41,297 nt of DNA, taken from NCBI GenBank assembly GCA_022843175.1, contig JALHOE010000065.1:1-41297 (forward strand), written 5' to 3'. Source of the stretch: Deltaproteobacteria bacterium (lineage in GTDB: Bacteria; Myxococcota_A; Polyangia; Polyangiales; JADJMO01). The notes beneath the pieces were generated by a model. That model ran no database searches and was not told the origin of the DNA. It saw nothing but the letters and a program-made list of their open reading frames with translations. The position numbers and the translations under genes were made by a program. Below, piece after piece: positions 33,943-37,145 of this stretch (its first letter is position 1; the number at the start of each line of letters is the position of its first letter).

Positions 33943-34410
33943 TCAGAACACCGGGCGCTCGCAGCGGAGGCGGCCGGAGGACATGCACTCGCACGCGCGC
34001 TCCTTGCCGACGCGGCACTTGCTGCCCTCGGCGCAGGGGGCGCCCTCGGTGCAGCTCGCCATCGTGAGCGTGAGCGACTCGACGGGCACGACGTTGCGGC
34101 GGTCGTCGTCGCGCACGCGCAAGCAGCTCCACTTGCGATCGCTGGTGCACGCGCACTTGGCGGCGAGCCCCTCGCGGGGCGACACGCGGTAGGTGCACCA
34201 CCCGACGTCGACGGCGCAGTCGTTGCCGTGGACCGGCACGTGGGCCGGGCAGATCCCGGTGGGCGCCGGCGCGATGGCGGGCGCGGTGGGGTTCGCCGGG
34301 CGCGCGCTGCTCTCGGCGGTGACCTCGGGCGCGCGGTCGCTCCCGAGCTCCTGCACGCTGACACACGCAGCGGACGACGCGAACACGACGAGGAGCAGCG
34401 CGCGGATCAT
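33943..34410 (-). CDS. Cys-rich lipoprotein A of ECF operon
   Basis: The 155-residue protein has a lipobox (LVVFASSAAC, Cys16), the short motif VSVQELG after it, and a domain with 12 Cys that includes GWCTY, KCACTSDRKWSC, APC, KC, ERACEC and LRC. It is homologous to the neighbouring lipoprotein B (shared C-x-C..D.[KR]WSC and C-x-C...GR.RC). ATG 34410 overlaps the stop of gene B by 4 bases (ATGA), so it is the last gene of the ECF sigma operon. The role is unknown; Cys density suggests disulfide-stabilised surface display, ligand sensing or metal/redox sensing. Confidence 0.78.
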   Translation of the reverse strand: MIRALLLVVFASSAACVSVQELGSDRAPEVTAESSARPANPTAPAIAPAPTGICPAHVPVHGNDCAVDVGWCTYRVSPREGLAAKCACTSDRKWSCLRVRDDDRRNVVPVESLTLTMASCTEGAPCAEGSKCRVGKERACECMSSGRLRCERPVF

Positions 34411-34907
34411 CGCGAGCACCGCGCGCGTCCGCCCTCGCAGGCGCACACGACCTTGTTCACCTCGACGGTGAGGTTGTCCTCGCACGGATCGCCGTCACGG
34501 AGCGGCATCTCGAGCGTGCGCATCGTCACGCCCTGCATGCACGACCAGCGGAGATCGCGGGTGCAGATGCAGAAGGTGGTGGTCGGCGACGGGGGCTTGT
34601 CGTCGGGGAGGTCGGGGCGCGTCGGCGGCTCGCCGACGTAGCTGCAGGGCGCCGAGCCGCGCGACGGGCACGCGTCGCCCTCGATGGGGCGGGTGAGCGG
34701 GCACGCGAGCTCGCGGGCCGCGGGCGCCTCGGGGCAGGCCCAGGCCGAGCCGAAGCCGTCGTGCTCGGCCTCGTCGTGCGTGGTGCCGACGGCGGCGGGC
34801 TCCTCGGGCGAGCGACCGAGGTCCTGCACCGAGCTGCTGCACGCAGCGCTCGTGAGCGCGACCGCGATCGCGTACCCGAGGCGTGACGCTCGTCCCATCA
34901 AGATCAC
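34407..34907 (-). CDS. Cys-rich lipoprotein B of ECF operon
   Basis: The protein has about 163-166 residues, with lipobox (AVALTSAAC) and the motif SVQDLG equivalent to SVQELG in lipoprotein A. The domain has 11 Cys: ACP, LACP, DACP, APC, TFCICTRDLRWSC, DPC, VVCAC, RC. GTG 34907 would overlap the anti-sigma-like gene stop by 4 bases (GTGA), in line with the other junctions; ATG 34898 is the alternative three codons later. It is a tandem homologue of gene A and probably has a related role in the same signalling pathway. Confidence 0.78.
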   Translation of the reverse strand: MILMGRASRLGYAIAVALTSAACSSSVQDLGRSPEEPAAVGTTHDEAEHDGFGSAWACPEAPAARELACPLTRPIEGDACPSRGSAPCSYVGEPPTRPDLPDDKPPSPTTTFCICTRDLRWSCMQGVTMRTLEMPLRDGDPCEDNLTVEVNKVVCACEGGRARCSR

Positions 34908-35566
34908 GGTTTGGCTCCGACTGCGCTGTCGACGATCGCCTTGTAGAACGAGCCGGGGAACCGCTTGCGGAACCGATCCGCGCGCGTCCTCGCCTCGTCC
35001 ATACGACCTTGGCGCGAGAGCGCTTGCACGGCCAGTGCCTCGCGCTCGTCGGCGTGGCTGCCGGACGGAAACTGCTTCTCGTGCTCGGCGACCGCAGCGA
35101 GCGCGCCCGCGGGATCGCCGCGCCCGAGCGCGCTGTGGATCTTCTCGATGAGCGCCCGCTCGGCGGCGTCGGAGCCGGACTTGACCGTCGGGGTGGTTGG
35201 CGGCGCCGCCAACGACGTTGACGGAGCGACGGGCGGCGGTGCAGCGGGGGCGGACACGACGACGGTGACCGGCACCGGCACCTCGACCCGCTTCTCGACG
35301 GTGATGGTCTGCGGCGCGGGCTGTGGGCGGAGCCACATCGCCCCCACGCCGACCAGCCCGCCGAGCGCAAAGGCGCTGAGCGCGACGAGCACCAACTTTC
35401 CCTTCGCCGCCGCGGTGCCGGCCGCGCCCGCGACCGCGACCGTCGCGGCGCTCGCTTCGATTCGGCCGAGGAGGCGCTCGCGCGCCGCGGGGGAGATCGG
35501 CGGACGCTTGCGCTCGACGTCGAGGAGCGACGCGAGCTCGGGATCGAGGGGCTCGAGCTCGCTCAT
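34904..35566 (-). CDS. Anti-sigma-factor-like membrane protein with TPR-like C-terminus
   Basis: The 220-residue protein has a short cytoplasmic N-terminus (about 1-55) that could bind the sigma factor, one transmembrane helix (57-79) and a periplasmic Pro/Val linker. A helical repeat region follows (about 140-215; IEKIHSALGRGDPAGALAAVAEHEKQFPSGSHADEREALAVQAL), similar to TPR/BamD-type modules. It lacks the HxxxCxxC zinc motif of ZAS anti-sigma factors. Position right behind the sigma gene, with ATGA overlap (35563-35566), and topology support the anti-sigma role by inference. Confidence 0.75.
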   Translation of the reverse strand: MSELEPLDPELASLLDVERKRPPISPAARERLLGRIEASAATVAVAGAAGTAAAKGKLVLVALSAFALGGLVGVGAMWLRPQPAPQTITVEKRVEVPVPVTVVVSAPAAPPPVAPSTSLAAPPTTPTVKSGSDAAERALIEKIHSALGRGDPAGALAAVAEHEKQFPSGSHADEREALAVQALSRQGRMDEARTRADRFRKRFPGSFYKAIVDSAVGAKP

Positions 35567-36159
35567 CGCGCATCCCTCCGGCGCGCCGCCGCTTCGGACT
35601 CACCACGCAGACGCAGGCGCTTCACCGCCGACGCGAACGCCTCGCGCGCGAGGCGCAGCCGCGAATAGGCGGTGTTGACCGGGATCCCGAGCGACGCGGC
35701 GATCGCCGGCATCGCGATGCCATCGATCTCGTGCATCACGAAGACCGCTCGCTTGTCGAGATCGAGCGCGTCGAGCGCCTCGACCACCAGCTTGCGGGAG
35801 CGCTCGGCATCGATCCGATCGTCCACCGAATCGGTGGTGTCGGCGACCTCGATCTCATCGCCCGAGCGCTCGCGGTGGCGAGCGAGCTTGCGGTAGTCCG
35901 AGGCGAAACGGTACGCGAAGGCGAAGATCCACGGCCGGAGCGGGCGCGACGGATCGTAGTCGCCGAGCTTCTTGTGGATCGCGAGGAACACCTCGTGCGC
36001 GACGTCCTCGAGGTCGCGCTCATGAACGCCGAGCCGTCGGAGCGAGTGGAAGACATACGAGCACTCGGCCTGGAAGAGGGCGCGGAAGTCCGGACGGGGG
36101 GCTTCGGCGGTGGACAGGTCCACACCCTCGGCTTGGGGAGCGCTCCGGGGATCCGTCAT
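35563..36159 (-). CDS. ECF-type RNA polymerase sigma factor
   Basis: The 198-residue protein has sigma region 2 (FRALFQAECSYVFHSLRRLGVHERDLEDVAHEVFLAIHKKL, PWIFAFAYRFASDYRKL) and region 4 (LDLDKRAVFVMHEIDGIAMPAIAASLGIPVNTAYSRLRLAREAF). Regions 1 and 3 are absent, as in ECF sigma factors. It directs transcription of an envelope or stress regulon. Its ATG overlaps the stop of the preceding outer-membrane-like gene (ATGA, 36156-36159) and its stop overlaps the anti-sigma-like start. Autoregulation from the 41-base divergent spacer next to dapE is possible. Confidence 0.95.
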   Translation of the reverse strand: MTDPRSAPQAEGVDLSTAEAPRPDFRALFQAECSYVFHSLRRLGVHERDLEDVAHEVFLAIHKKLGDYDPSRPLRPWIFAFAYRFASDYRKLARHRERSGDEIEVADTTDSVDDRIDAERSRKLVVEALDALDLDKRAVFVMHEIDGIAMPAIAASLGIPVNTAYSRLRLAREAFASAVKRLRLRGESEAAARRRDAR

Positions 36160-37145
36160 CGAAAATGGAGGACCACCCCGAGACCGGCGACGAGGGCCAG
36201 CGCGGGCGTGGTCCAGACGTCCCGACCCTCCACGCGCAGGGTCGTGCGCGTGAGGAGGGCCAGCCCATCGGCATGAAATCGGAGAGCGACCGGACCGTAG
36301 AGCTCGGCCTCGATGCCCACCCGCACCCCGACCGCCGCCCAGGGCGATCGGTCCTCCCGCGCCTCGCGCACCCCCGCGCCCGCGCCCCGGAGCGACCCAT
36401 ACGAAGCGATCGCGCAGCCGAGAACGATCTCGTGGTGGATGCAGGGAACGATCGCCCCCGCAAGCACCGACGACCGCACCTCGCCCCCGCCAGCCGCCTG
36501 CTTCTCGGCCTCGGCATCGACCCGCCCCTCGACCGCCACCGAGTACCCCGCCCCACGAAGACCAAACCCGGCGGTGAGCCCATACGTGAGGTGCGGCGCA
36601 ACCCCGAGCGAGACCGAAGGCCCAAGCAAGGCAAACGGATGCAACCGCGCAGTCGCAAGCGCAGGCGCAGGCGCAGACGCAAGCGCAGGCGCAGGCGCAG
36701 GCGCAGGCGCAGACGCAGACGCAGACGCAGACGCAGACGCAGACGCAGACGCAGACGCAGACGCAGACGCCGGCGCCCCCCCCAACGGATCCACCGCAAT
36801 CGCCAACGCCAACGCAATCGACGAAGCCAGCTCATTGCAGTCCGCCGAGCTCGACGACAACGAGCGCGCCCCCACCACGGCCCCCGTCGCGTCCCGCATC
36901 TCGAGCTTCGCCCGAAACACGCCCCCCTCGCGCGTCACCGTCACCCCCACGGTGCGATCGGCGTCCTCGCGAAACGGGTCGTAGCCGAGGCGCGCGGCCA
37001 CGAGCTGGCGCATCAGCGCGTCGTCCGGGCAGATATTCGCCGAGCCCTTGCGCGCGTACGAGAGGCGCGCCGTGGGGCGCTCCGCGGCGAGCAGCCACGG
37101 CGCGCCGAGGACGGCAGCCAGACAGATCAGTGAGCGCGCGCGCAT
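36156..37145 (-). CDS. Exported protein with Ser-Ala/Pro-Ala repeat linker, predicted outer-membrane
   Basis: The 329-residue protein has a signal peptide (about 1-21; SLICLAAVLGAPWLLA), an N-terminal globular domain (about 22-120; SANICPDDALMRQLVAARLGYDPF, DCNELASSIALALAIAVDPLGG), a (SA)n(PA)n linker of about 40 residues, and a C-terminal region of alternating amphipathic strands ending FR. That ending and the glycine/aromatic pattern suggest an 8-stranded outer-membrane barrel. It is the first gene of the ECF operon. The linker is encoded by a hexanucleotide microsatellite. It could be the outer-membrane sensor or a main client of the sigma system. Confidence 0.72.
   Translation of the reverse strand: MRARSLICLAAVLGAPWLLAAERPTARLSYARKGSANICPDDALMRQLVAARLGYDPFREDADRTVGVTVTREGGVFRAKLEMRDATGAVVGARSLSSSSADCNELASSIALALAIAVDPLGGAPASASASASASASASASASASAPAPAPAPALASAPAPALATARLHPFALLGPSVSLGVAPHLTYGLTAGFGLRGAGYSVAVEGRVDAEAEKQAAGGGEVRSSVLAGAIVPCIHHEIVLGCAIASYGSLRGAGAGVREAREDRSPWAAVGVRVGIEAELYGPVALRFHADGLALLTRTTLRVEGRDVWTTPALALVAGLGVVLHFR
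36655..36768. repeat. Hexanucleotide microsatellite inside coding sequence
   Basis: Nineteen uninterrupted hexamers (GCAAGC, GCAGGC, GCAGAC on the plus strand) cover 36655-36768. The last ten (36709-36768) are identical GCAGAC copies. They encode Ser-Ala and Pro-Ala pairs. Slippage changes protein length by two residues per unit and never shifts frame. Confidence 0.92.

Follow-up and report, generated by a model that had tools for sequence, protein, structure and literature searches.

What controls an extracytoplasmic function (ECF) sigma factor whose operon also codes for an outer-membrane protein, a second membrane protein and two lipoproteins? The question is raised by five genes, all on the minus strand (37145-33943), in a stretch of 41,297 nucleotides, called here the window, which is one contig (JALHOE010000065.1, assembly GCA_022843175.1) of a 9.75 Mb genome from the Myxococcota. 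The genome has 57 sigma70 region-2 matches. The locus is read here, at a probability of roughly 0.6, as a cassette for cell-surface signalling that does not depend on TonB and whose surface lipoproteins vary; it would work in the manner of FecA-FecR-FecI with different parts. The genes code for the following products:

37145-36156, minus strand: predicted outer-membrane barrel protein, 329 aa (open reading frame (ORF), AlphaFold2 (AF2) model, homologue alignment)
36159-35563, minus strand: ECF sigma factor, 198 aa, with sigma2 and sigma4 (Pfam, NCBIfam)
35566-34904, minus strand: membrane anti-sigma-like protein, 220 aa (AF2 model, homologue alignment)
34907-34407, minus strand: Cys-rich lipoprotein 1, 166 aa from a GTG start, with an ATG three codons further in; tail CSSSVQDLG
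34410-33943, minus strand: Cys-rich lipoprotein 2, 155 aa; tail CVSVQELG

Consecutive genes overlap by 4 nt at all four junctions (ATGA, ATGA, GTGA and ATGA from the barrel gene to the gene of lipoprotein 2). All five genes have an orthologous locus in one more genome of the genus, and homologues of the five stand in the same order in another genus of the family; the five-gene operon is thus not a product of chance. A sequence-only reading of the window had described five genes joined by ATGA or GTGA overlaps, a sigma factor, an anti-sigma without zinc motif but with a periplasmic tetratricopeptide repeat (TPR)-like domain, and two homologous Cys-rich lipoproteins. This description agrees with the ORF coordinates, the domain matches, the structural model and the protein comparison reported below.

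Conservation of the barrel, sigma and anti-sigma genes

The conserved unit is composed of the barrel, sigma and anti-sigma genes, that is three genes and not five. The three proteins were searched separately in the order Polyangiales and matched the same places; the neighbourhoods of some 95 sigma homologues were scanned with profiles built from the window proteins. The arrangement barrel, sigma, TPR anti-sigma is complete in 69 of the 96 sigma loci of the order, and 12 further loci have one partner, most of them at contig ends. The maximum-likelihood tree places the window sigma in a supported clade of 21 sigmas. The full trio accompanies 19 of these, one locus is cut by a contig end and one lacks the neighbours. 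The sequence-only reading had named unrelated neighbours beside homologous sigma factors of close relatives as the outcome that would speak against it, and this is not what the clade displays. It had also proposed to check the five-gene order across the Myxococcota: the first three genes are conserved, and the tandem of Cys-rich lipoproteins is kept only at the level of the family.

A hold-out analysis was designed against circularity, with the periplasmic amino terminus domain of the barrel protein (N-domain, see the following section) as the only query. It covered 284 genomes of the phylum, 57 of them positive, and gave 40 unseen loci, some of the order, others of the class or from elsewhere in the phylum, mostly those with the stronger N-domain matches, whose neighbours were not known beforehand. 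The sigma gene lies 0.9-1.3 kb downstream of the N-domain gene in 35 of the 36 evaluable loci and the TPR anti-sigma is present in all evaluable loci (32/32), including those of other classes of Myxococcota. Copies of the N-domain reach at least 9-12 per genome. A wide scan of 84,980 species with a motif built from a nine-sequence subset of the N-domain alignment yielded 35 confirmed loci, whose titles are all myxobacterial or, by the older usage, "Deltaproteobacteria", a result that holds within the reach of this one motif. Among them are loci of Labilithrix, Polyangium and Byssovorax; a cultured host of the cassette is Polyangium fumosum. The surface-signalling layout proposed by the sequence-only reading is supported, and it is conserved far beyond the host genome.

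Stoichiometric synthesis, which the same reading saw suggested by the layout, finds no such support. Overlaps of 4 nt are widespread among operons, and across this family three of the four junctions are variable in this respect: the overlaps are found in 62/74 cases for sigma/anti-sigma, 27/69 for barrel/sigma and 22/50 for anti-sigma/lipoprotein. The counts therefore support a tight coupling of sigma to anti-sigma, to which strict coupling is limited across the family, and not a stoichiometric synthesis of all five proteins. Note that one locus (L195, 2585-4615) has the variant order sigma, TPR anti-sigma, barrel, with a 4-nt overlap ahead of the barrel gene.

Predicted organization of the three proteins

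The barrel protein has a signal peptide followed by the periplasmic N-domain (residues 25-120), which a Pro/Ala linker joins to an 8-stranded barrel (residues 169-327). In the AF2 model, built from a 49-row alignment, the N-domain folds as b-a-b-b-b-a and both domains have a predicted local distance difference test (pLDDT) score of ~97, while the Ala/Ser/Pro-rich linker is disordered. The barrel fold matches OmpA, NspA and OmpW at VIA Z 16-18, with Z 17-18 for the OmpA/NspA likeness. The N-domain carries C39 in 48/49 homologues and R94 and C103 in 49/49; the two cysteines may form a C39-C103 disulphide. Its best fold match is domain 1 of TolB (three TolB structures, ~102 residues, root-mean-square deviation 2.9-3.2) at VIA Z 8.6-8.9, only slightly above the level that the structure-comparison tool calls common. 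The profile-profile comparison with TolB_N by hhalign is not significant, though the strands align in register, and sequence homology is not established. The N-domain profile has no match among solved structures. Pfam matches in the 49 homologues are confined to low-complexity regions and one autotransporter match, leaving the N-domain uncovered. No TonB-dependent receptor or plug match was found in this set and the model has 8 strands. STN has no Pfam match in the 49 homologues either and is not listed among the fold matches, a list that is filled by the barrel. The linker length ranges from 33 to 178 residues across the family. In the window the linker is coded by an in-frame GCGTCT hexanucleotide repeat (36690-36780; SASASA...), which could change its length by two residues per unit.

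The sigma factor has Sigma70_r2 and Sigma70_r4_2 (Pfam) and sigma70-ECF TIGR02937 (NCBIfam) matches, all above cut-off. It thus has sigma2 and sigma4 without sigma3, as ECF sigma factors do. Among solved structures CnrH is the one closest to it (E 2.9e-13). Five related sigmas without barrel protein and TPR anti-sigma (L101, L106, L116, L117 and L120) form a supported clade; in L117 a 651-aa protein follows directly after the sigma with a 4-nt overlap. In a 3.3 Mb genome the protein after the sigma (L088, 1980-3232) has an anti-sigma-like cytosolic amino terminus and no detected TPR domain.

The AF2 model of the anti-sigma-like protein (59-row alignment) features cytosolic helices at residues 9-19 and 26-48, a transmembrane segment at 58-78 and a TPR domain at 130-215. 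The pLDDT is ~95 for residues 11-30, 88 for residues 31-40 and lower beyond, rises to ~98 in the TPR domain, and is low in the Pro/Ala linker. The TPR domain is BamD/CpoB-like, with BamD as nearest solved structure by sequence profile (E 9e-6); Pfam YfiO matches 13/59 homologues, and the TPR/YfiO matches are weak. The zinc-binding anti-sigma (ZAS) motif HxxxCxxC occurs in 0/74 family members and no Pfam anti-sigma domain, FecR included, matches any of the 59 homologues. The anti-sigma role is predicted from adjacency, coupling and topology. FecR_N/DUF4880 is found in 0/38 relatives, while two control genomes do match; FecR domains as such are common. In two genomes a FecR domain and a similar TPR domain apparently share one open frame (G001:C151:112526-113182 and G006:C37:135868-136791), which suggests that these genomes have an anti-sigma or sensor of a related, FecR-TPR type.

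Downstream lipoproteins and their tail motif

Lipoprotein 1 is a homologue of lipoprotein 2 (29% identity, E 9e-5); both are Cys-rich and carry a lipobox. Among the 38 relatives their tandem arrangement occurs only in the sister genome and in one other genus of the family; it is a family-level accessory and one instance of the lipoprotein that varies downstream of the trio. Elsewhere, in at least 50 of 88 loci, the start of a lipoprotein gene lies no more than 260 nt from the stop codon of the anti-sigma gene. The lipoprotein bodies vary (FG-GAP, RCC1, Kazal, STIG1-like, MopE-type, beta-helix, MXAN_6577-like Cys-rich and others). The recurrent part is a short tail after the acylated Cys with a Gly at +7 or +8, as in CTRVLDIG, CERRVDLG, CGGDIDLG and CVTEANVG of other loci. 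The pattern C-x5-6-[LVI]-G is found in 28/47 non-redundant downstream lipoproteins and in 10/112 other lipoproteins of the same loci (Fisher p 6e-11), having been chosen after seeing the 47 cases; in hold-out lipoproteins it is found in 6/16 (p 0.006). The controls were drawn from the fetched loci only and their rate may be overestimated, since some matches (L190, L192) lie in loci of the cassette family.

Two more lipoproteins of the host genome carry such a tail. A 353-aa lipoprotein (L041, 1950-3011; tail CVGVQDLG) is coded on the opposite strand near a TPR anti-sigma gene at a contig end. A 461-aa lipoprotein (tail CGGSTTVG; plus strand of the window, 23063) matches the motif outside any cassette.

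Proposed mechanism and alternatives

In TonB-dependent transducers the signalling domain binds the periplasmic domain of the anti-sigma and protects it (PMC11637429; review PMC9249621). A TonB-independent analogue is proposed because the domain-linker-barrel layout beside an ECF sigma factor and a single-pass anti-sigma parallels that of such transducers, FecR_N was not found in 38 relatives, and the site-2 protease family is present in the host genome. The barrel protein would be the transducer, its 8-stranded barrel sitting in the outer membrane and its N-domain extending on the long Pro/Ala linker towards the inner membrane. There the anti-sigma would hold the sigma factor by its short helical cytosolic part and present its TPR domain in the periplasm for contact with the N-domain. 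A surface event, detected either by the barrel or by the lipoproteins of the operon, may alter this contact, leading to inactivation of the anti-sigma; regulated proteolysis, with a site-2 protease acting last, would be the probable route. The freed sigma factor would transcribe its own operon, upstream of which lies a putative regulatory site:

37166..37180, minus strand: candidate promoter element TCCCGTATCGTGATC, upstream of the barrel gene

A different role for the same proteins would be the sensing of envelope stress. The BamD-like TPR domain would detect mis-assembled outer-membrane proteins and the barrel would serve as a sentinel client, as RseA/DegS sense the carboxyl termini of outer-membrane proteins, with no external ligand. 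BamD recognises outer-membrane protein substrates, and both the profile match to BamD and the YfiO matches given above agree with this view. A sentinel client has, however, no need of a periplasmic N-domain, and in the barrel protein it is this domain, with its Cys, Arg and Cys, that is best conserved. Moreover, many divergent copies with different lipoproteins occur per genome, which favours specific inputs over envelope-stress sensing. This explanation is considered unlikely.

ECF operons often carry target genes, and the barrel protein and lipoproteins could be such targets that travel with their regulator and have no part in signalling. Lipoprotein content does vary freely between copies and the 15-mer TCCCGTATCNTGATC, kept upstream of the sister-genome orthologue, has no exact site in three genomes other than at the window operon and this orthologue. 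Yet the periplasmic domain of the barrel protein stays with the sigma in 35/36 hold-out loci across classes and the layout of the protein is that of a transducer, making an ordinary ECF/anti-sigma operon improbable. Still another function, in which the barrel protein places its cognate lipoprotein on the surface by means of the tail motif and sigma/anti-sigma reports the success of assembly, would account for a position-specific tail in lipoproteins of otherwise unrelated sequence, but it is quite improbable since an 8-stranded barrel is narrow for the passage of a folded or long chain and the motif, found also in ~9% of control lipoproteins, may be a general sorting signal.

Several points weigh against the signalling cassette itself. 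Neither partner is found in 15 of the 96 sigma loci, so that the sigma must be able to function in other settings too, and the lipoproteins are not strictly obligatory, given that 38/88 loci have no detected downstream lipoprotein by a detection rule that misses some (e.g., L045). A search for a cassette-wide promoter motif upstream of the barrel genes found none, only GC-rich words being enriched. Sigma, TPR, N-domain and barrel have correlated distances (Spearman 0.26-0.41, 0/999 permutations as high), consistent with duplication as a unit, but the permutation test leaves shared species history in. What the data show is the content and order of the genes, their translational coupling, the predicted domains, the conservation of the trio as a unit, and the associated lipoproteins with their tail motif. 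The protein contacts, the proteolysis step and the autoregulation are inferred, and the lipoproteins may be sensors or mere products.

A bolder version of the signalling cassette, put forward only tentatively and rather doubtful as a whole, is a new TonB-independent class present only in Myxococcota among the genomes searched. A TolB-N-like domain on an 8-stranded barrel would talk to an anti-sigma with a BamD-like TPR domain. The sensors would be interchangeable surface lipoproteins that dock by the tail motif beside their acylated Cys, and large genomes would run some ten such channels in parallel.

Relation to known systems

FecA/FecR/FecI, FpvA/FpvR and FoxA/FoxR share with the cassette an outer-membrane barrel with an amino terminus periplasmic domain on a linker, a single-pass anti-sigma and an ECF sigma coded by adjacent genes. 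The differences are the 8-stranded barrel in place of a plugged 22-stranded receptor, with no plug, STN or receptor Pfam match, and, relative to FecR-type systems, the periplasmic TPR domain of the anti-sigma, the order barrel-sigma-anti-sigma and the variable lipoprotein downstream. By its barrel and its anti-sigma the cassette is not a member of the TonB-dependent family, but it probably works like one. In CnrH-CnrY-CnrX, which includes the closest solved sigma, CnrY is a minimal, zinc-free, single-pass anti-sigma, a likeness to that of the cassette, and CnrX is a metal-binding periplasmic protein; the cassette has a barrel transducer and a TPR domain in place of CnrX.

The PUMA3 system VreA-VreI-VreR of Pseudomonas aeruginosa also signals through an unusual transducer, distinct from the TonB-dependent receptors, and has the gene order transducer, sigma, anti-sigma (PA0674-0676) (PMC2729926). 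VreA has STN-like and TolA/TonB-like domains and no barrel, whereas the cassette has an OmpA-like barrel and a TolB-N-like domain. The mechanosensing proposal for SigX-CfrX-OprF of P. aeruginosa likewise ties an ECF sigma to an OmpA/OprF-type outer-membrane protein, but with a soluble putative anti-sigma and a general porin instead of a dedicated co-encoded transducer (PMC8999054). No description of the cassette combination was found in the literature searched; the 2021 ECF re-classification lay outside this search and the sigma may already have a group number. Even so, the transducer domain would, as far as checked, be unreported, as would the type of barrel and the tail of the lipoproteins.

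Many myxobacterial ECF sigma factors are without known input. Some of them would be accounted for by a cassette that supplies an outer-membrane transducer of its own together with an anti-sigma and a lipoprotein at the surface. Such a cassette would define a transducer domain without Pfam entry and, for bacteria that are predatory and multicellular, offer an alternative to TonB-dependent surface signalling that is open to direct test.

Genomic surroundings

A regulon search from the orthologue-conserved 15-mer upstream of the barrel gene found none; two more sites with one mismatch are present in the host genome, without evident link to the cassette. The operon is bordered upstream by a divergent M20 peptidase gene, and a convergent gene meets its end at 33943.

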